From: Tistrella mobilis
GTDB taxonomy: Bacteria > Pseudomonadota > Alphaproteobacteria > Tistrellales > Tistrellaceae
Direction of reading: 5' to 3'
DNA length: 64,000 nt
Assembly: GCF_039634785.1 (NCBI RefSeq)
Contig: NZ_JBBIAB010000009.1
Span: 1 to 64,000, forward strand
Each line of letters opens with the position of its first letter. The stretch's first letter is position 1. Shown piece after piece: positions 1-44,143 of the stretch. The notes under the pieces are model-generated. The model worked only from the letters and a program-made list of their open reading frames with translations, was not told where the DNA came from and made no database searches. The position numbers were made by a program, and so were the translations under genes.

Positions 1-283
1 GGTGGATCCGCGCCAGCGTGCCATCCCATTCCCACAGACCCAGATATTCATGCACCGTACTCCGGGGCGGCAGATCCTTGGGCAGAGCCCGCCATTGGCA
101 GCCGGTCATCAGCACATAGAATACGCCGTTCAGAACCTCGCGGACATCGACCGTGCGCTGCCGACCGCCGCGCTTCGCGGGCGGGATCAGCGGCTCGACA
201 AGCGCCCATTCTTCATCCGTCAGGTCGCTCGGATATCTCAACCCCGGCCGCTCATAAACACGGCGGGTTTCCGTCGTCCACAT
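1..283 (-). CDS. IS5-family transposase, N-terminal fragment (runs off window)
   Basis: Read on the minus strand from an ATG at 283 (an in-frame ATG at 297 is an alternative), the protein contains LTDEEWALVEPLIPP, a KRGGRQRTVDVREVLNG stretch and TGCQWRALPKDLPP, followed by a region with W-E-W-D-G-T-L. This is the N-terminal helix-turn-helix (DUF4096) region of IS5/IS427-group transposases. About 94 codons are present, and the DDE catalytic core lies beyond the left edge. It would mobilise its own element. Whether the full copy is intact cannot be judged here. The family call is confident; the subgroup is not. Confidence 0.85.
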   Translation of the reverse strand, partial: MWTTETRRVYERPGLRYPSDLTDEEWALVEPLIPPAKRGGRQRTVDVREVLNGVFYVLMTGCQWRALPKDLPPRSTVHEYLGLWEWDGTLARIH

Positions 284-14959: not shown

Positions 14960-16039
14960 ATGACCGACATCGACAGCCTGAAGGAGGAGATCGAGGGGCG
15001 CATCGCCGCTGCCGCCGATCTCGACGCGCTCGAAGAGGTGCGCGTTCAGGCCTTTGGCCGCAAGGGCCGCATCACCGAGATGCTGAAGGGCCTGGGCGCC
15101 CTGGACCCCGAGGCGCGCAAGGCGACCGGCCAGGCGCTGAACCAGGTGCGCGACCAGCTGCAGACGGCCCTGGAGGCCCGCCGCGAGGTGCTGAAGGCGG
15201 CGGCCCTGGATGCCCGTCTCGCGGCCGAGCGGATCGACGTCACCCTGCCGGTGCGCCCCGAGCCCCAGGGCCGTATTCACCCGATCTCGCAGGTGATCGA
15301 CGAGCTGACGGCCATCTTCGCCGATATGGGCTTCCAGGTGGCCGAAGGTCCGCAGATCGAGACCGACTACTACAACTTCACCGCGCTCAACATCCCGCCG
15401 GAGCATCCCGCCCGGCAGATGCACGACACCTTCTATGTCCGCGGCAAGGCCGAAGACGGTGCCAACCTGGTGCTGCGCACCCACACCTCGCCGGTGCAGA
15501 TCCGTACCATGGAGGCGGGCAAGCCGCCTTACCGGATCATCGCGCCGGGGCGGACCTATCGCAGCGACAGCGACATGACCCACACCCCGATGTTCCATCA
15601 GGTGGAGGGGCTGGTGATCGATCGCGACATCACCATGGCGCATCTGAAGGGCTGCCTGATCGAGTTCGCCAAGGCCTTCTTCGAGGTCGACGATCTGCCG
15701 GTGCGTTTCCGGCCGAGCTATTTCCCCTTCACCGAGCCCTCGGCCGAGATGGATATCGGCTGCCAGCGCGGCGGCGGCGAACTCAAGATCGGCAATTACG
15801 GCGACTGGCTGGAGATCCTGGGCTGCGGCATGGTCCACCCCAAGGTGCTGGCCATGGCCGGCATCGATCCCAACGAGTATCAGGGCTTCGCCTTCGGCAT
15901 GGGCATCGAACGCATCGCCATGCTGAAGTACGGCGTGCCGGATCTGCGCACCTTCTTCGAGGGCGATCCGCGCTGGCTGAAGCATTACGGCTTCGCGGCG
16001 GCAGATCTGCCGACGCTTGCCGGCGGTCTGACGCGCTGA
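14960..16039 (+). CDS. pheS: Phenylalanyl-tRNA synthetase alpha subunit
   Basis: A 359-residue catalytic subunit of the alpha2-beta2 class II synthetase that charges tRNA-Phe. It has an N-terminal coiled-coil ([13 protein letters not shown] onward), then the catalytic core with [13 protein letters not shown], motif 2 around [18 protein letters not shown] and motif 3 [13 protein letters not shown] near residue 313. ATG 14960 follows GAGGCCTCC. It lies 16 bases upstream of pheT. Confidence 0.97.
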
Positions 16040-16055
16040 ACGGAGATCACTCGCG

Positions 16056-18464
16056 ATGAAGTTCACCCTGTCCTGGCTGAAGGACCATCTCGACACCGAT
16101 GCCGATCTGGACCGGATCGCGCTGGCGCTGACCGCCGTCGGGCTCGAGGTCGAAGAGATCACCGACCGGCGCGCGGCCCTCGCCCCGTTCACCGTCGCCC
16201 ATGTCATCTCGGCCGAGAAGCATCCGGATGCCGACAAGCTCCGGGTCTGCCGGGTCGATACCGGCGATGGCGAGGTCCAGGTCGTCTGCGGCGCCCCCAA
16301 TGCCCGCACCGGCATGAAGGCGGTTTTCGCCCGTTCGGGCCTGACCGTGCCCGGCACCGGGCTGACGCTCAAGCCCTCGAAGATCCGCGGCGTCGAAAGC
16401 AACGGCATGCTGGTCTCGATGCGCGAGATGGGCCTGTCGGACGAGCATGACGGCATCATCGAGATGCCCGGGGATGCGCCGCTCGGCCAGCCCTTCGCGC
16501 CGGTGCTGGGCGTCGACGACCCGGTCATCGAGATTGCGATCACCCCCAACCGGGGTGACTGCCTGGGCGTGCGCGGCATTGCCCGGGACCTGGCCGCCGC
16601 TGGTCTCGGCACGCTGAAGCCGCTGGAGGCGACCCCGGTTGCCGGCCGTTTCCCGAACCCGGTCGCCATCCGGATCACCGATGATGCCAGGTCCGGCTGC
16701 CCGGTCTTTGCCGGGCGCACCATCCGCGGCGTGACCAATGGTGCAGCACCCGACTGGATGCTGCGCCGGCTGACCGCGGTCGGGCTCAGGCCGATTTCGG
16801 TACTGGTCGACATCACCAACTATGTGTCGCTGGATCTGGGGCGGCCGCTGCATGTCTTCGACGCAAAGAAGCTGACCGGCGATCTGACCATCCGCACCGC
16901 CGCCGAGGGCGAAAGCCTGAAGGCGCTGGACGAGCGGACCTATGCGCTGGGTGCCGGCCGCGACGTGGTGATCGCCGACGATGCCGGGGTGCAGAGCCTG
17001 GGCGGCATCATGGGTGGCGAGGCGACCGGCGTCGACGAGACCACCACCGAGGTGGTGCTGGAATGCGCCTGGTTCGATCCGAAGCGGATCGCCGAAAGCG
17101 GCCGGGCCCTCTCGATCCTGAGCGATGCCCGCTATCGGTTCGAGCGCACCGTCGACCCCGAGACGGTGCTGCCGGGCACCGAGATTGCGACCGCGCTGAT
17201 CCTGAAGCTTGCCGGTGGCGAGGCATCCGAGGTTACGGTCGCGGGCGAAGTGCCGGGCTTCGACCGGGTCATCGGCTTCCGCCCGGCGCGGGTGGAAAGC
17301 CTGGGCGGCATCGTCGTCGATCCGGCGGCGCAGGCCACCATCCTCACCCGCCTCGGCTTCGACGTGGTGCAGGAGAGCGACGCCCTCTGGCAGGTCCGGG
17401 TACCGAGCTGGCGCCAGGATGTCGAGGGCGAGGCGGATCTGGTCGAGGAGGTGCTGCGCATCAACGGCTATGACGCCGTGCCGCCGGTGCCGCTGCCGCG
17501 GGTGGATGTGGTGACCCGCACCGCAGCCAATGACCGCCGTCGCCGGGCCGGCTGGGTCCGCCGCGATCTGGCCGCCCGCGGCCTGGTCGAGACGGTGAAC
17601 TACTCCTTCCTGACCGCGGCCGCCGCCCGGCGCTTCGGCGGCGGGGCGGACGAGCTGCATCTGCTGAACCCGATCTCGGCGGATCTGGAAGTGATGCGGC
17701 CCACCCCGCTCGCCTCTCTGGTCATGGTGGCCGGTCGGGCTGCCGCCCGTGGCGAGCTGGACGGCCGGTGGTTCGAGGTCGGCCCCGGCTGGCGCGGCAT
17801 CGCGCCTTCCGACCAGCGCAACCTGGCGACCGGTCTGCGCACCGGCCGCACCGGGCCGCGCAGCTGGACCGGGCAGCCGCGGACGGTCGACGTCTTCGAT
17901 GCCAAGGCCGACATCCTGGCGGCGCTTGCGGCCGCGGGCATGGATGCCGACAAGGTGCAGATCGTCGCCGGCGAGGCGCCCGGCCATTACCATCCCGGCC
18001 GGTCGGCCGCGGTGAAGCTGGGGCCGAAGCTGACGCTCGGCTTCTTCGGCGAGCTGCATCCGCTGGTGGTCGAGGCCCATGACGTGAAGGGGCCGGCCGT
18101 CGGCTTCGAGCTGGATCTCGACGCCCTGCCGGAGCCCAAGCGCAAGGCCGACCGGACCCGTCCGGCGCTGGTGCTGCACGACCTGCAGCCGGTCGAGCGC
18201 GATTTCGCCTTCGTGGTCGATGCCGGGGTTGCGGCCGAGGCGCTGATCAAGGCGGTGCGCGGCGCCGAAAAGAAGCTGATCACCGACGTCTCGGTCTTCG
18301 ACCGCTACGAGGGTGAGCGGCTGGGCGCCGGCAAGGTCTCGCTTGCGGTGTCGGTGACCCTGCAGCCGGTGGAGCGCACCCTGACCGATGCCGAAATCCA
18401 GGCGGTGTCGGACCGGATCGTCGCCGCGGTCACCAAGGCGACGGGGGCCGTGCTGCGGGGCTGA
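16056..18464 (+). CDS. pheT: Phenylalanyl-tRNA synthetase beta subunit
   Basis: An 802-residue beta subunit with full domain order: the N-terminal MKFTLSWLKDHLDTDAD, a tRNA-binding OB domain (EKHPDADKLRVCRVDTG, around 50-150), B3/B4 editing region, B5, the catalytic-like core (VNYSFL onward) and a C-terminal FDX-ACB domain (RDFAFVVDAGVAAEALIKAV). It forms the heterotetramer with PheS, supplies tRNA recognition and edits mischarged Tyr-tRNA. It follows pheS directly. Confidence 0.97.
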   Translation: MKFTLSWLKDHLDTDADLDRIALALTAVGLEVEEITDRRAALAPFTVAHVISAEKHPDADKLRVCRVDTGDGEVQVVCGAPNARTGMKAVFARSGLTVPGTGLTLKPSKIRGVESNGMLVSMREMGLSDEHDGIIEMPGDAPLGQPFAPVLGVDDPVIEIAITPNRGDCLGVRGIARDLAAAGLGTLKPLEATPVAGRFPNPVAIRITDDARSGCPVFAGRTIRGVTNGAAPDWMLRRLTAVGLRPISVLVDITNYVSLDLGRPLHVFDAKKLTGDLTIRTAAEGESLKALDERTYALGAGRDVVIADDAGVQSLGGIMGGEATGVDETTTEVVLECAWFDPKRIAESGRALSILSDARYRFERTVDPETVLPGTEIATALILKLAGGEASEVTVAGEVPGFDRVIGFRPARVESLGGIVVDPAAQATILTRLGFDVVQESDALWQVRVPSWRQDVEGEADLVEEVLRINGYDAVPPVPLPRVDVVTRTAANDRRRRAGWVRRDLAARGLVETVNYSFLTAAAARRFGGGADELHLLNPISADLEVMRPTPLASLVMVAGRAAARGELDGRWFEVGPGWRGIAPSDQRNLATGLRTGRTGPRSWTGQPRTVDVFDAKADILAALAAAGMDADKVQIVAGEAPGHYHPGRSAAVKLGPKLTLGFFGELHPLVVEAHDVKGPAVGFELDLDALPEPKRKADRTRPALVLHDLQPVERDFAFVVDAGVAAEALIKAVRGAEKKLITDVSVFDRYEGERLGAGKVSLAVSVTLQPVERTLTDAEIQAVSDRIVAAVTKATGAVLRG

Positions 18465-23157: not shown

Positions 23158-24549
23158 ATGAAGGTTCAACGTATTCGGGATCCGTTGCACAACCTTATCG
23201 AATTCTCCGGGGAAGACTTCGAACAGAAGATGTGGGACATCATCCAGACGCCCCCGTTTCAGCGCCTGAGGCGTGTGAAGCAGCTGGGCTTCTCGGATCT
23301 GGTCTATCCCGGGGCGACGCATTCGCGTTTTGCCCACAGTATCGGCGTTTTCCATACGGCGCGGCGTCTGGCGGAGGTGGTCAAGCAAAAGGGAAGCGGC
23401 CGTGACGTGCATCGGATCTCGATTGCGTTGGCGGCTGCGTTGTTGCACGACGTCGGGCACGGCCCGTTCAGTCATGCCTTCGAAGCGGTCGGGAAGCGCC
23501 TTGGCCTGCGGTTCGCAAACCACGAGGAGATGAGCGATATCCTCATCCGGAGGGGCGAAATCGGCGAGCTTTTGCGCGGGCTGGGCAGCGGATTTGCTGA
23601 TGATGTGGCGGATATGGTCAAAGGGCAGGGCACTCAGACAATCCACAACGCGATTGTTTCAAGCCAGTTCGACGCAGACCGGCTCGATTACCTGCAGCGG
23701 GACAGATTGATGACCGGGACGCATCACGGCGGCATCGATTTTGAGTGGCTCATCGCCAATCTCGAAGTCGGGCAGGTGGTAAGCGGTGTCGATGATACCG
23801 CGATCGGTAAGATCGAGACATTCGTCCTGGGGCCCAAGGCCGTGATGGCGGCAGAAGCCTTCATTGCCGGCCTGTTCCAACTTTACCCCACCGTCTACTT
23901 TCACAAGGCGACGCGTGGTGCTGAGAGACTTTTTACAGAACTGCTGGTCAGGGTGATCGAACGAGGCCGATCTTGCGAGGCAGACGCGACCGGCCTGGGG
24001 AAGCGGCATCCGATCATCAGATTCGCGTCTGCTCCCGACGACCCGGAGCGTTTGCTGCAACTTGACGACACCGTTATCTGGGGCGCTTTGCCGGAACTAT
24101 CCGGTGCAACGGACCCCATCATTCGTGAGGTGGCGACACGGCTTCGGGAGCGGCGGCTGTTCAAATGTCTGGATATCCGCCGTAAAATCGAGCACGACCT
24201 TGACCCGTCCGGTAGTGGCGCACGTGATGACGAGATCAGCAAATGCTGTGTTCGGGTGAAAGAGAGTCTGGCAGGGCGCCTTACGGAACAGTCGGAAGAT
24301 CGCCTGCCGCCCATTCTGGTCGACCAGACGGTTCGCACCCCATATAAGTCTGGCGATCGGGCGAAGGGGGTACTGGATCGGATCAGCGTTCGCGACGACG
24401 CGGGGCTGATCGTCGATCTTCAGGAGCGATCCCGGATGGTGGCGGCGCTGCGTACGTTCGAGGTGTTCAGAGTGTATGTCGCCGATAATGCAGCCGCAGA
24501 CGAGGTCTGGCGCATCGTGGCGGAGGAGACCGGACATGCAGAACAGTGA
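23158..24549 (+). CDS. HD-domain phosphohydrolase (YwfO/dNTPase-like)
   Basis: A 463-residue protein of the HD superfamily resembling bacterial YwfO and the SAMHD1/dGTPase group, which hydrolyse nucleotides. The metal site is seen as H55 (THSRFAHSIG), H97-D98 (LLHDVGHGPFSHAFE) and D172/D174 (DADRLDYLQRD). The C-terminal half (about 250-463) has no motif I recognise. ATG 23158 is preceded by GGAGG. The gene overlaps the next by 14 bases, so the two form one unit. Codon use is less GC-rich than the neighbours, hinting at transfer next to the tRNA. It could be a nucleotide-depleting defence or toxin-like enzyme; this is inference. Confidence 0.8.
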   Translation: MKVQRIRDPLHNLIEFSGEDFEQKMWDIIQTPPFQRLRRVKQLGFSDLVYPGATHSRFAHSIGVFHTARRLAEVVKQKGSGRDVHRISIALAAALLHDVGHGPFSHAFEAVGKRLGLRFANHEEMSDILIRRGEIGELLRGLGSGFADDVADMVKGQGTQTIHNAIVSSQFDADRLDYLQRDRLMTGTHHGGIDFEWLIANLEVGQVVSGVDDTAIGKIETFVLGPKAVMAAEAFIAGLFQLYPTVYFHKATRGAERLFTELLVRVIERGRSCEADATGLGKRHPIIRFASAPDDPERLLQLDDTVIWGALPELSGATDPIIREVATRLRERRLFKCLDIRRKIEHDLDPSGSGARDDEISKCCVRVKESLAGRLTEQSEDRLPPILVDQTVRTPYKSGDRAKGVLDRISVRDDAGLIVDLQERSRMVAALRTFEVFRVYVADNAAADEVWRIVAEETGHAEQ

Positions 24550-25078
24550 GGCCCTGAAAGTGGCTGGCATCGTGCGCGATGCCGGTGGGCGGATCGTCGG
24601 ACGGACCCGGCTGCAGAAGACGGCCTATCTTCTTACCCTCGCCGGGCTCGAGGACGGGTTGTCGTTCAGCTACAAGCATTACGGCCCCTATAGCGAAGCG
24701 GTGGCAGAGGGCGCGCGTGTGGCCGGCCTGTTCAATCTGGTGACGGAAAGCGAGGGCAAGGCATCGTGGGGTGGATTTTATTCGACCTACGAGCTGGCGC
24801 CTGCCGGCGAGGAGGCGTTGCTGCCGACCGATGCCGCAACGGAGGCTTCGCGGCGTGCGCTTGCCGTCATAGCGGCCGATGCGAATGCCGTGGTGCTGGA
24901 GCTTGCTGCGACTGCCGCCTATCTGGCGGCTGAAGAAAATCACGCCACTCCCTGGGCCGAGACGGCCCGGCGAAAGCCCGAGAAGGCCGGAGAGGGGCGG
25001 ATCGACGAGGCGCGGAGGCTGTACGACCGGCTGCGGAAAGTGGCCACGCCGCGCCCGCTGCCCGAGATCGTGGATTGA
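24536..25078 (+). CDS. YwgA/Panacea (DUF4065)-like protein paired with HD protein
   Basis: A 180-residue protein whose N-terminal half, with TRLQKTAYLLTLAGL and FSYKHYGPYSEAV, resembles the L-Q-K-x-x-Y ... Y-G-P-Y/F pattern of YwgA and of Panacea/SocA-type antitoxin domains. The C-terminus (about 130-180) is helical and charged. It overlaps the HD gene by 14 bases, and ywgA and ywfO neighbour each other in Bacillus, so the pairing appears conserved across phyla. It may be a partner or inhibitor of the HD enzyme. The function is not established; the fold assignment is moderate. Confidence 0.65.
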   Translation: MQNSEALKVAGIVRDAGGRIVGRTRLQKTAYLLTLAGLEDGLSFSYKHYGPYSEAVAEGARVAGLFNLVTESEGKASWGGFYSTYELAPAGEEALLPTDAATEASRRALAVIAADANAVVLELAATAAYLAAEENHATPWAETARRKPEKAGEGRIDEARRLYDRLRKVATPRPLPEIVD

Positions 25079-26118: not shown

Positions 26119-26400
26119 ATGCCGATCACGCCCGAGACCACCGTCACCCGCAATGACGATCTGATGATCGCCGAGATCGATGGCGAGGTGGTGCTGATGC
26201 ATGTCGACAAGGGCAATTATTACGGTCTGGACCAGATCGGCTCCGACATCTGGGAGCGGATGGCCGCTCCGGTTTCGGTGGCCGATCTTCATGCCGCGCT
26301 GGTCGCCGATTACGAGGGCGATGCCGAAGAGATCCGCGCCGATCTGATGGAGCTTCTGGAACGGATGGCCGAGCACGACCTGGTGCGCGTCGCCGCCTGA
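26119..26400 (+). CDS. PqqD-like small protein (RiPP recognition element type)
   Basis: A 93-residue protein with the PqqD pattern: beta-strand E-I-D-G-E-V-V-L-M, then GNYYGLDQIGSDIWERM and a helix-rich C-terminus (ADLHAALVADYEGDAEEIRADLMELLERM). PqqD and the lasso-peptide B1 proteins use this winged-helix fold to bind leader peptides of RiPP precursors. ATG 26119 has AGAGGA 7 bases upstream. A lasso-leader-like 55-residue peptide lies 1.2 kb downstream on the same strand, a plausible client. No RiPP cyclase, B2 protease or radical-SAM gene is in the window. Confidence 0.82.
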   Translation: MPITPETTVTRNDDLMIAEIDGEVVLMHVDKGNYYGLDQIGSDIWERMAAPVSVADLHAALVADYEGDAEEIRADLMELLERMAEHDLVRVAA

Positions 26401-26526: not shown

Positions 26527-27108
26527 ATGTCCGAAACCACGCCCGCCCCCGATCTCAGTTTCGAGATGCCGTCGGAGCTTGCAACCCAAGGCTTCGCCGT
26601 CCGGCCGCGCACGCCCCAGGACACCGACTTCCTGCGTGAGCTGTACATCTCGTTCCGTTGGGCGGAACTCGAGGCCGCCGGCTGGCCCGAGGCCACGCGG
26701 CGCAGTTTCCTGGCCGACCAGTTCCGGCTGCAGGACAACCACTACACCACCCATTACACCACCACCGCCTTCCTGATCATCACGCAGAACGGCGCGCCGG
26801 TGGGGCGGCTGTATATCGACCGGGGCGGCGTGCACGAAATCCGGCTGGTGGATATCATCCTGGTGCCGATGCTCACCGGCCGGGGCATCGGCTCGGCCAT
26901 CATCCGGGTCCTGCTCGACGAAGCCGCGCGCACCGGCCGCTATGTCGGGCTGCATGTGGAAAGCTACAACCCGGCCCGGCGGCTGTATCAGCGGCTCGGC
27001 TTCGTCGATCGCCGACTTGAAGGCCCCTATTTCTATATGAGCTGGGGAGATTTTCCTGCCGATGCCGGCACGGTCGCCGGAGATGGGGCTCAGCTGAACA
27101 CGATCTGA
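26527..27108 (+). CDS. GNAT family acetyltransferase
   Basis: A 193-residue acetyltransferase. The acetyl-CoA loop is VPMLTGRGIGSAIIRVLLDEA near residues 115-135 (R/Q-G-x-G-x-A/S pattern) followed by HVESYNPARRLYQRLGF. GNATs of this type occur beside microcystin-dependent-protein (phage tail collar) genes, as here. The acceptor could be a protein or the peptide nearby; this is not shown. It overlaps the convergent DUF6916-like gene by 19 bases. Confidence 0.82.
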   Translation: MSETTPAPDLSFEMPSELATQGFAVRPRTPQDTDFLRELYISFRWAELEAAGWPEATRRSFLADQFRLQDNHYTTHYTTTAFLIITQNGAPVGRLYIDRGGVHEIRLVDIILVPMLTGRGIGSAIIRVLLDEAARTGRYVGLHVESYNPARRLYQRLGFVDRRLEGPYFYMSWGDFPADAGTVAGDGAQLNTI

Positions 27109-27401
27109 TACCGCACCGTCCCGTCGGGATTGCGGCCGATCGGCACCATGAACAGGCGCATCTGGCCCATGGTTTCGTGCGACAGCAGAACCTCCTGGCC
27201 GTCGATGGCGATATCCGTCCGGCTACCGTCCAGAAACAGGCTGAACCGTTCCCGATCGAAGGTCGGCAATGGAGGCTTGCGGGTCACGCTTCTGAGCGTG
27301 AGCCGTTCGATCAGGACCCCCGCTTCGCCCGAGGGGATATCGAAGGGGTGGGCGGCGGCGGCTTCGAATTCGTCGGCGGTGAGATCCAGCGGGGAGCGCA
27401 T
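27090..27401 (-). CDS. DUF6916-like small protein linked to tail-collar genes
   Basis: A 103-residue protein with an N-terminal LTADEFEAAAAHPF and a C-terminal ETMGQMRLFMVPIGRNPDG followed by RYQIVF. It looks like the DUF6916 family, small beta-rich proteins usually coded near tail-collar/MdpB genes. ATG 27401 with AAGGG upstream is chosen; an upstream ATG 27431 is possible. No enzyme motif is visible. It may be a structural or chaperone partner of the collar proteins; this is inference from context. Confidence 0.6.
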   Translation of the reverse strand: MRSPLDLTADEFEAAAAHPFDIPSGEAGVLIERLTLRSVTRKPPLPTFDRERFSLFLDGSRTDIAIDGQEVLLSHETMGQMRLFMVPIGRNPDGTVRYQIVFS

Positions 27402-27572
27402 AATCGACCCTTCATGTGTGGGTTTGGGCATTGTATTGCTCGCAGCATCAGTGATATTCTACCCAGAGAACATGCTATGATCGTTGGGATGTTGACGCTG
27501 GTGTGAATGCTACTGAATGGTTGTTGTGCACAGCGTTGCGCGGAAAATGAACACTATCAAACAGGGTGTAGT

Positions 27573-27740
27573 ATGAGCAACAAAACTGCAGAAATGCGTC
27601 GCTCCGCAGAGAAAGTTTCCAAGGGGAAGGGCCTTCGGAGGCATTGGCAGGCACCAATTTTGACTGTTCGGACAGCAAATGCTCTCACCTTGGGCGCAGA
27701 TACCTATCTAAGCGACGGCGTTGATGGTGTTGTGTCCTAA
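27573..27740 (+). CDS. Lasso-leader-like RiPP precursor peptide candidate (55 residues)
   Basis: A 55-residue peptide from ATG 27573, preceded by AGGGTG. It has a basic N-terminus (MRRSAEKVSKGKG), then a leader motif HWQAPILTV with W25, P28 and L30, a Thr (T39) exactly 11 residues after the Pro, and a 15-residue tail beginning G41 with D48 as the eighth residue. This matches the plan of lasso-peptide precursors: a Y/W-x-x-P-x-L leader, Thr two residues before the core, a core starting in Gly, and an Asp/Glu at position 7-9 that could close a ring. The tail otherwise is rich in G, D, V and S. The local DNA is AT-richer than the genome. There is no cyclase in the window, so it is an orphan candidate. 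Confidence 0.62.
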   Translation: MSNKTAEMRRSAEKVSKGKGLRRHWQAPILTVRTANALTLGADTYLSDGVDGVVS

Positions 27741-28187
27741 TCAAGATTGTGCATTTTGAGTGCATAGGCACGGTATGTCGTCAATGTGGTCGAGTAAGTG
27801 GGCCTCATGGTACGCAATGCGGATGTATTTCGTGAGCGCCGTGCCTAGTGCTACTTTGTAGGCATGTAAGTTGGCCTTGTTCTGTGTGTTTTTGAAGAGG
27901 TGATGGGACCACAATCGGGACGATGTGACATAAATGAATGCAATTTGTTTTTCGGATTATTTTTCAATCCAAGATTAATTGGCCCGAAAATGATAATATC
28001 AGAGCTATTTATTTTTTATGATATGTGAGTATGTGTGTTTTTCGTTTGCCTCTTTTGGTTGAGTGTTTTCTAATTTAGCGGCGTGGCCAGCCGTGACGTG
28101 GGAAGTTGTCGCTCTGCTTTTTATCCGTTCCGCGCACGGCTGTGCTTGACCCGTAGCCCACAATAATCCCCGTGAGGACGACGCACG
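27741..28187 (+). other. AT-rich spacer between peptide and collar genes
   Basis: 447 bases with no credible gene. The right half (about 27930-28060) is markedly AT-rich, with -10-like GATAAT/TAATAT at 27992-27999 but no convincing -35. A promoter for the three collar genes is likely here. The composition contrasts with the GC-rich genome and supports horizontal acquisition. Confidence 0.5.
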
Positions 28188-28745
28188 ATGGACCCCTTCA
28201 TTGGAGAGATTCGCATCTTTCCGTTCGGTTTTGCGCCGAGCGGATGGATGCCTTGCGAAGGCCAGGAACTGCAGGTGAGCCAGAATCAGGCTCTTGCTGC
28301 CCTGCTCGGAAATACCTATGGCGGAAACTGGCCGACCACTTTTAAGCTCCCCGATCTGCGTGGCCGGGCGCCCTTGGGCCAGGGCCAGCACAATGGCTTT
28401 AGCTATAGCATGGGCAATGCGATTGGCAGCCAGACGGTGACCCTTACGGTCGGACAGCTGCCGCAGCACACGCACACAATGTCCGCCCTTAGTACCGAGG
28501 GAAACCTGGCGGTGCCGACGGCGTCCAGCGGTATTACAGCAATGCTTGCAAATACTGGAGATAATAGCTCTCAGCCGAACGGTCCGGAGGTTTATATTAC
28601 TCCGCCGCCGACCGCGACTCTGACGCCACTTCGTCCGGAGACGGTGACGTCGACTGGGGGCGGTCAGGCCCATCCGAACGAGCAGCCCAGTCTTGCGGTG
28701 TATTACTGCATCGCGACAACCGGGCTGTGGCCGCCGCGGTCCTGA
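28188..28745 (+). CDS. Phage tail collar/microcystin-dependent protein family, copy 1
   Basis: A 185-residue protein of the tail-collar (MdpB-like) family. The N-terminal half has GEIRIFPFGFAPSGWMPCEG, then QALAALLGNTYGGNW and FKLPDLRGRAPLGQG, the hallmark collar domain. The middle has QTVTLTVGQLPQHTHTM, and the C-terminus ends with HPNEQPSLAVYYCIA and a hydrophobic terminal strand. Proteins of this type are found in phage tail fibres and as stand-alone secreted or surface proteins. Start ATG 28188 with GAGGA upstream. First of three tandem paralogues; no other phage genes are nearby. Confidence 0.88.
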   Translation: MDPFIGEIRIFPFGFAPSGWMPCEGQELQVSQNQALAALLGNTYGGNWPTTFKLPDLRGRAPLGQGQHNGFSYSMGNAIGSQTVTLTVGQLPQHTHTMSALSTEGNLAVPTASSGITAMLANTGDNSSQPNGPEVYITPPPTATLTPLRPETVTSTGGGQAHPNEQPSLAVYYCIATTGLWPPRS

Positions 28746-28835: not shown

Positions 28836-29387
28836 ATGGACGGATTTCTGGGCGAAATCAGGATGTTCGCCGGCAATTACGCGCCGGAAGACTGGGCAAT
28901 CTGCAACGGCGCGCTGCTGCCCATCGTGGGCAATGAGGCACTGTACTCGCTGCTCGGTGTCAAATACGGCGGCGATGCGGTGACCAATTTTGCGCTGCCG
29001 GATCTGCGCGGCCGGATGGCGGTACATGCCGGGCAGGGGCCGGGTATGCCGTTTCCGCATCCGCTGGCGCAGCAATTCGGCAGCGAGACGGTGACGCTGA
29101 CCGAGGCGATGATGCCGGCGCACAGCCATAGCTGGCAGACCTATCCGCAGCCCTCGACCACCGAGGCGCCCCAGGCGCAGGTGCTGGGCACCATCGTCAA
29201 GAGCGCGACAAGACCGACATTCGACGGTCTCTATCGGAGCACGCTTCCGACTTCGACCAATGTCGGGCCAATGGCGTCTCAAATGATCGGATCGACCGGC
29301 CTCGGCGGCGCGCATGCCAATATCATGCCGGGGCTGGTCATCAGCTTCATCATCGCCCTCAAGGGCAATTACCCGACCCGTCCGTGA
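28836..29387 (+). CDS. Phage tail collar/microcystin-dependent protein family, copy 2
   Basis: A 183-residue paralogue of the preceding gene: GEIRMFAGNYAPEDWAICNG, ALYSLLGVKYGGD, FALPDLRGRMAVHAGQG and ETVTLTEAMMPAHSHSW, then a variable centre and a conserved C-terminal HANIMPGLVISFIIALKGN. It lies 90 bases after copy 1 and 13 bases before copy 3. The variable middle regions, which differ between the copies, are where binding specificity would be expected if these are surface ligand-binding proteins. Confidence 0.88.
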   Translation: MDGFLGEIRMFAGNYAPEDWAICNGALLPIVGNEALYSLLGVKYGGDAVTNFALPDLRGRMAVHAGQGPGMPFPHPLAQQFGSETVTLTEAMMPAHSHSWQTYPQPSTTEAPQAQVLGTIVKSATRPTFDGLYRSTLPTSTNVGPMASQMIGSTGLGGAHANIMPGLVISFIIALKGNYPTRP

Positions 29388-29400
29388 GGAGAAGGCGATC

Positions 29401-29961
29401 ATGGCAGATCCGTTCTACGGTGAAATCCGCGCATTCACGTTCGCCTTCTCGCCGGCCAACTGGGCCTACTGTGCCGGGCAGGAGGTCCAGATCCAGCAGT
29501 ATCAGGCCCTGGCGGCGGTGATCGGCACGATGTATGGCGGCAATCTCAGCCAGAACAAGTTCAACCTGCCCAATCTGCAGGGCCAGGTGGCGGTCGGGTC
29601 CGGAACCGGTGTGGGGTTGACGCCGCGCACCGTCGCGCAGCAGATCGGGACCGAGACCGTGACACTGGCGATCTCGCAGATCCCGCCGCATACCCACACG
29701 GCGCAGGCGCTCAATGAAGCGGTTCTTACGGATGCGACGTTGACGCCGTCGAGTACTACCATGCTTGGTCGGGCAGTGGGTGCAGCTGCCTACGCCCTTT
29801 ATCCGAACCCGCTGCCGTCGCCGTCGCCGGTGGTGATGATGGATGTGCGCAGCCTGACCCAGATCGGCAACAATCAGGCACATGAGAACCGGCAGCCGGC
29901 GCTGACGCTGAATTTCTGCATCTGTGTGTATGACGGGTACTTCCCGGTCCGGCCGTCCTGA
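29401..29961 (+). CDS. Phage tail collar/microcystin-dependent protein family, copy 3
   Basis: A 186-residue third paralogue: GEIRAFTFAFSPANWAYCAG, ALAAVIGTMYGGN, FNLPNLQGQVAVGSGTG and ETVTLAISQIPPHTHTA, ending HENRQPALTLNFCICVYDG. It has the same domain plan as copies 1 and 2 with a diverged centre. ATG 29401 is immediately downstream of copy 2. The tandem array has no tail sheath, baseplate or integrase genes near it, so this is not a prophage remnant by content. Confidence 0.88.
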   Translation: MADPFYGEIRAFTFAFSPANWAYCAGQEVQIQQYQALAAVIGTMYGGNLSQNKFNLPNLQGQVAVGSGTGVGLTPRTVAQQIGTETVTLAISQIPPHTHTAQALNEAVLTDATLTPSSTTMLGRAVGAAAYALYPNPLPSPSPVVMMDVRSLTQIGNNQAHENRQPALTLNFCICVYDGYFPVRPS

Positions 29962-43102: not shown

Positions 43103-43783
43103 TCACCCAAGCCAGAGGGTGAAGTTGTAGCGATACCAGTCTGCCGGAACATCGTGCAGCGGATCGACGCCATGCGACTGATCGGCATCGACGTCGAAAA
43201 GGATCGCTCGATTGGGCAAAGGGTCGATGACCCGTTCACCCCGGGCGGTGAAGACGCGAAAGGTGCCCCCCATGCCGGGGTGCCAGTCATCGTTGAAATA
43301 AAGCAGCAGGCAGAGCCTGCGTTCCGCGGCGCGGTCGTCATGCCGGGTCGAAAAATCATCCCGGCCCATGCGCCGGACCAACAGATCGGCGATCGCCCCG
43401 GTGTCGATGCCGGTCAGTGTGCCAAGCCAGTGCCTGAAGTCGGCGCGGCCGGCCAGAAGTTTGAAACCCACGATGGCGAGCATGCCGGGTGCCAGCTCCC
43501 GCCCCGTCTTCGGTGCCCGATAGTTTCCGTGGCGGAACAGGCGCTGATCCGCCGGGGTGGCATTGAACCGTTCGGCTGATGTCAGTTCGCCGCTGGCGTC
43601 GACCCCATAATGGGTCGTCCAGTCGCAATCCGTCCGCAGGCCCTGGGAGATCCGTGCATAGCGCTCTGGCAGCAGGACATCGTCCAGTATCAGCATGCGG
43701 ACCGGATCCGCTTCGAAATCGGCGCGCAGCTGCGATGTCCGCCTGTCGTCCAGGTAGATGGGATTGATCCACTTTTCCAACAT
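43103..43783 (-). CDS. 2-oxoglutarate/Fe(II)-dependent oxygenase, next to RiPP-like peptide
   Basis: A 226-residue oxygenase of the 2OG-Fe(II) (prolyl-4-hydroxylase-like) superfamily. The iron site is visible as H148-x-D150 (STRHDD) and H204 (QSHGVD), with the 2-oxoglutarate-binding arginine at R218 (DWYRYNFTLW). The double-stranded beta-helix core runs about 90-226; the N-terminal ~35 residues (MLEKWINPIYLDD) resemble the substrate-binding lobe of P4H enzymes. A 55-residue peptide is divergently coded 192 bases away, suggesting peptide hydroxylation; this is inference from context. AAGGAGA lies about 13 bases before ATG 43783. Confidence 0.82.
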   Translation of the reverse strand: MLEKWINPIYLDDRRTSQLRADFEADPVRMLILDDVLLPERYARISQGLRTDCDWTTHYGVDASGELTSAERFNATPADQRLFRHGNYRAPKTGRELAPGMLAIVGFKLLAGRADFRHWLGTLTGIDTGAIADLLVRRMGRDDFSTRHDDRAAERRLCLLLYFNDDWHPGMGGTFRVFTARGERVIDPLPNRAILFDVDADQSHGVDPLHDVPADWYRYNFTLWLG

Positions 43784-43975: not shown

Positions 43976-44143
43976 ATGAGCACGAGCATTGACCAGATCG
44001 GCATGCAGGGCGAGGCGACTGCCGACGTGACGAGGGATGCCGTGAAGGGGGTGTGGTCCGCACCACAATTGCAGTGCGTGGAGCTCGACGTGGTCACCCG
44101 GGCGCAGGCCGGTGCCAACCCCGACGGGGTCACCGTCTCCTGA
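43976..44143 (+). CDS. Lasso-leader-like peptide 2 (55 residues), next to 2OG oxygenase
   Basis: A 55-residue peptide from ATG 43976, preceded by AGGAAACAGGA. It has W27, A29, P30, L32 (VWSAPQLQ) and T41, again exactly 11 residues after the Pro, the same spacing as the peptide at 27573. The tail after T41-R42 is A-Q-A-G-A-N-P-D-G-V-T-V-S, with the D-G-V ending shared with the first peptide. The N-terminus is acidic rather than basic. Both have exactly 55 codons. The divergent neighbour is a 2OG oxygenase. No lasso enzymes are near, so it may be an unmodified signalling or export-tagged peptide, or a client of distant enzymes. Confidence 0.55.
   Translation: MSTSIDQIGMQGEATADVTRDAVKGVWSAPQLQCVELDVVTRAQAGANPDGVTVS

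Follow-up and report, generated by a model that had tools for sequence, protein, structure and literature searches.

A lasso-type peptide precursor of Tistrella, probably matured by enzymes encoded at other loci

Background

In the established route of lasso peptide biosynthesis, the leader of the precursor is bound by an RRE domain, the B2 protease cleaves at a site guided by the threonine at leader position −2 [T(−2)], and a cyclase closes the core onto its ring residue (PMC5067487, PMC10368454, PMC13381572). Genome mining for these peptides usually relies on finding precursors next to B and C genes. Here we describe a 55-amino-acid (aa) peptide that is very probably a real lasso peptide precursor and that lacks such neighbors. 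It is encoded at 27573–27740 (+) of a 64,000-nucleotide stretch of Tistrella DNA (the window; bases 1–64000 of the 219-kb contig C9, beginning at the contig end).

The closest described systems are the phosphorylated lasso peptides of the paeninodin type (PadeA/K/B1/B2/C; SyanA of Sphingobium; PMC9266682, PMC5067487). Both they and the Tistrella system have a [Y/W]xxPxL leader motif, T(−2), split B1 and B2 proteins, an HprK-like kinase (in Tistrella at some loci) and a conserved C-terminal serine; in paeninodin-like peptides, HprK-type kinases act on this serine (PMC9266682). Paeninodin-type genes are clustered, however, whereas in Tistrella the precursor, B2 and cyclase genes lie at different loci, and the precursors adjoin genes for sulfotransferases, MBOAT/GDSL proteins, 2-oxoglutarate (2OG) oxygenases or GNAT acetyltransferases. 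A second likeness is to the linear polyphosphorylated peptides (LPPs) of Bacillota, which combine a lasso-like leader and an RRE with HprK kinases and have no cyclase (PMC13381572).

Anatomy and conservation of the precursor

The peptide, MSNKTAEMRRSAEKVSKGKGLRRHWQAPILTVRTANALTLGADTYLSDGVDGVVS, has a leader of residues 1–40 that carries the [Y/W]xxPx[L] motif for RRE binding at W25–P28–L30 and a threonine, T39, at position −2. Its core, G41–S55 (GADTYLSDGVDGVVS), divides into a predicted G1–D8 ring (GADTYLSD) and the tail GVDGVVS with its C-terminal serine; D48, at core position 8, falls within the 7–9 range for a ring-closing D/E. Direct reading of the open reading frame (ORF) bore out the residue assignments of the first-pass annotation (W25, P28, L30, T39, G41 and D48), which had recognized a lasso precursor here. 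We applied a lasso rule, [W/Y]xxPx[L-like]-6..9-T-8..9-[D/E], to the 468 window ORFs of 30–160 aa. Only two satisfied it, this one and a second at 43976–44143, with ∼0.06 expected after residue shuffling.

Searches of Pfam, NCBIfam and PHROG returned no match for the peptide, and single-sequence peptide searches gave nothing useful except two weak paralogs in the same genome. A profile built from paralogs succeeded where single sequences had not; the peptide matches it at E 1e-20, its own sequence being part of the profile. Profile and motif searches of the genome (6.16 Mb in 62 contigs, an incomplete assembly) located about 21 precursors with this pattern, distributed among 11 loci. Those checked on the T. 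mobilis plasmid pTM1 are annotated as "hypothetical protein" or carry no annotation. We aligned 45 precursors from this and related genomes, a set that is not phylogenetically independent and that comes in large part from regions fetched for containing a precursor. The W and P of the leader and T(−2) are invariant (45/45), the ring residue D/E stands at core position 8 in 39 and at position 9 in six, and it is directly followed by G in 40. Serine closes all 45 sequences, although it played no part in their selection. The consensus thus reads WxxPx(L), seven to eight residues, T, x, a ring of eight to nine residues ending in D/E, usually G, and a tail of five to nine residues. An unfiltered count, subject to the same relatedness and sampling, gave 51 of 55 distinct motif-fitting ORFs ending in Ser, versus a background of 9%.

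The locus is conserved around a rapidly changing peptide. T. mobilis KA081020-065 has the gene order of the window (GNAT, DUF6916, 55-aa precursor, three Collar genes). Positional orthologs of the precursor lie at L111:9831–9998 and L119 ∼15150–15400. The segment that contains the precursor (27419–28165) has no DNA similarity to T. mobilis detectable by blastn, although its flanks are 92% and 90% identical, and its guanine–cytosine (GC) content drops to 33%–55%, versus 68% for the window. Between the two Tistrella alleles, nine of 40 leader residues and four of 13 aligned core residues are identical, yet the reading frame, the 55-aa length, WxxPxL, T(−2), G1, the ring Asp and the terminal Ser are all retained. 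Across orthologous loci the neighbors are 79%–99% identical, while of the peptide mainly the lasso pattern remains. Genome G095, from another family, also places a precursor (core GSDSYTSDGLDGS) between DUF6916 and three Collar genes, with a second precursor, HprK, sulfotransferase, PqqD and cyclase genes a few kilobases away. The latter genes are 46%–59% identical to a cluster at C6:116–119k of the present genome, an arrangement that fits one neighborhood split into two.

Upstream of the precursor lies a 93-aa PqqD-like RRE (26119–26400, +), a candidate B1/leader-binding protein. It scores 68.5 bits against the NCBIfam model lasso_PqqD_Bac (cut-off 80), and its best PDB matches are two lasso RREs, the PqqD chaperone 9x90 and TbiB1 5v1u. 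Together with the 45 relatives and the positional orthologs, this neighbor strongly supports the lasso-precursor reading.

Candidate maturation enzymes at other loci

Domain searches found no Asn_synthase (cyclase) or Transglut_core3 (B2) gene in the window or elsewhere on C9, so that A, B and C genes are not clustered here. The first-pass annotation had claimed that both enzymes were missing for 35 kb on either side; their local absence holds and extends to the whole contig, although only 27.6 kb is visible to the left. The apparent oddity of a precursor without enzymes is a local one. The same annotation had proposed a genome-wide search for C and B2 proteins, with the absence of any cyclase, together with that of a transcript or product, as a point against a lasso peptide. 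This search found a B2 gene and cyclase-like genes at other loci, so the genome does not lack cyclase candidates. The sole lasso B2 of the genome is on contig C29, unlinked to precursors (NF033537, 73.6 bits vs. a cut-off of 33). Seven PqqD genes are present, as are five Asn-synthetase-like, or cyclase-like, genes, on C3, C6 (two), C13 and C17. Their products do not have the N-terminal Cys2 nucleophile that the true AsnB on C31 has, and four of the five contain a recognizable ATP-PPase motif. The lasso-cyclase model NF033535 is the best match for four and the second best for the C17 protein. The highest-scoring gene (L049:8211–10172, on C3; 280 bits) has no precursor that we could find nearby.

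A cyclase lies near six of the 21 precursors, which occupy four loci, but not near the other 15, and B2 is near none. T(−2) and a D/E ring residue at position 8 or 9 are retained even at the loci without a cyclase. Exactly one B2 is also found in each of T. mobilis KA081020-065 and a second Tistrella species. Of 385 genomes sampled across the class, representing 277 genera, 33 (from 26 genera) encode B2, whereas all five genera with precursor matches at E<1e-3 have it (hypergeometric ∼5e-6). Weaker matches (E 0.001–0.01) came from seven further genomes and were discounted; only one of these seven has B2.

We consider it probable that the peptide is an authentic, fast-evolving lasso precursor of class-II type (no Cys in the core) that is processed in trans by enzymes scattered over the genome. 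The gene positions suggest that the single B2 and several cyclases located elsewhere serve distant precursors, of which this would be one of about 21 depending wholly or partly on enzymes encoded at other loci. The WxxPxL leader would be bound by a PqqD-like RRE, probably that at 26119–26400; the C29 B2 would cut after L40, guided by T39; and an unlinked cyclase would connect G41 with D48 to form an eight-residue ring, presumably threaded by the seven-residue tail ending in Ser. The window locus would then be a Collar-linked lasso cluster with its cyclase, B2, kinase and sulfotransferase at other loci. Because HprK-type kinases act on the C-terminal Ser of paeninodin-like peptides, tailoring of this residue by neighboring HprK, sulfotransferase or MBOAT/GDSL enzymes is plausible by analogy. 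Should maturation indeed take place in trans, searches based on gene clusters would miss most of the precursors in this genome.

Several points weigh against processing of this kind. All five cyclase-like genes score below the NF033535 cut-off (92–280 vs. 525 bits), and a pattern search for the ATP-PPase motif found none in the C3 protein. The cores are short (13–17 aa, with tails of five to nine), and no transcript or product is known. The cyclase tree does not point to one enzyme for the window peptide, as Collar-linked cyclases fall into several clades, and our attempt to assign a partner cyclase by tree failed. In that tree, C6:116k groups with the Collar-neighbor cyclase of G095, and Collar-linked cyclases of the Azospirillum type are nearer those of C17 and C6:358k.

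Alternative explanations

The strongest rival, though an improbable one, is a linear peptide of the LPP kind, in which a lasso-like RRE binds the leader, the leader is cleaved and the C-terminal Ser is modified, all with no macrolactam formed. Such a product would account for the invariant Ser and for the many precursors with no cyclase nearby, as LPP precursors likewise have none adjoining. It sits poorly with the ring Asp/Glu and T(−2) kept at cyclase-less loci, and with the presence of a lasso B2 in this genome and in all five precursor-bearing genera. The archaeal-type signal peptidase I of LPP clusters was not recognized among the genes called at the precursor loci examined, although no dedicated search for it was made.

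A decayed orphan, left over from a once complete cluster and no longer processed, seems less probable still. A locus with no cyclase, B2, HprK or sulfotransferase gene, and a low-GC precursor segment with no DNA similarity to T. mobilis, are what it would predict; retention of frame, length and every lasso position in two strongly diverged Tistrella alleles argues against it. A chance resemblance, for which the want of any database family might speak, is very hard to credit given the shuffling expectation and the profile match (own sequence included), and is already refuted by conservation that extends to a positional ortholog in another family.

Link to Collar modules

The precursor is embedded in a module of a GNAT acetyltransferase (26527–27108, +; PF00583; 92% identical in T. 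mobilis KA081020-065 and 79% in G095), a DUF6916 protein (27090–27401, −; PF21880, 65.6 bits) and three Collar-domain proteins (PF07484) at 28188–28745, 28836–29387 and 29401–29961, all on the + strand (90.5, 89.7 and 81.9 bits). The PHROG matches of the Collar proteins are mostly tail and tail-fiber proteins. A role of the module in known defense systems was not supported (PADLOC negative).

We surveyed 78 Collar loci drawn from many phyla. Eight had a strong cyclase match (>100 bits), more than expected from a generously set chance rate of 1.6% per locus (binomial ∼4e-5, uncorrected for relatedness), and 11 had a precursor-like ORF, some of them weak. Two loci, in Azospirillum oleiclasticum and a member of the Rhodospirillaceae (L161 and L140), bring together PqqD, B2, cyclase, precursor, HprK, three Collar genes, GNAT and DUF6916. 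The present genome has a second Collar-linked precursor (L107:7732–7965), 42 bases ahead of a Collar triplet at C2:371k. Collar/GNAT modules often occur with no lasso genes, GNAT adjoining Collar genes in many phyla, and the GNAT is therefore more likely to belong to this module than to tailor a lasso peptide. A search limited to the open literature gave no report on lasso peptides with tail collars, on lasso peptides in Tistrella or on lasso precursors that are orphan or unclustered.

These observations suggest a connection, open to testing, between the widespread Collar/GNAT/DUF6916 module and lasso peptides. More tentatively, and on balance doubtfully, lasso peptides in Tistrella may follow a hub-and-spoke scheme. 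A single unlinked B2 would then work with a few cyclases to mature the ∼21 hypervariable precursors, each of the 11 loci having its own tailoring enzyme for the conserved C-terminal Ser, with Collar proteins as dedicated functional partners of some peptides. Separately, a Bacteroidetes Collar locus encodes a possible WxxPxL peptide (L141:10943–11071; a weak match) adjoining a cyclase-like gene.

Other precursors and neighboring genes

The second lasso-type precursor of the window (43976–44143, +; 55 aa) has the core AQAGANPDGVTVS, with a predicted A1–D8 ring. Its ortholog at L112:6046–6213 shares 35 of 42 leader residues; in T. mobilis the precursor is kept while its core varies. It adjoins a 2OG-Fe(II) oxygenase gene (43103–43783, −; PF13640, 52.2 bits), a candidate tailoring enzyme. 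An Fe/2OG enzyme beside a lasso-type precursor recalls CanE, the 2OG-dependent lasso hydroxylase of canucin, as cited in PMC13381572; this likeness is one of gene type rather than demonstrated homology, and the Tistrella locus has no core enzymes.

Elsewhere in the genome, six precursors at L106:9287–11292 and 17512–17640 (C2:339–347k) lie near GDSL and MBOAT acyltransferase genes with no lasso enzyme nearby, some of them in tandem and alternating with a small DUF5989-type protein. Three tandem precursors at L109:8592–9710 (C6:53k) adjoin sulfotransferase and HprK-like kinase genes, again with no cyclase. Within the window, the gene at 24536–25078 weakly matches a DarG model (33 bits) and adjoins an HD-domain/dGTPase-like gene (23158–24549).
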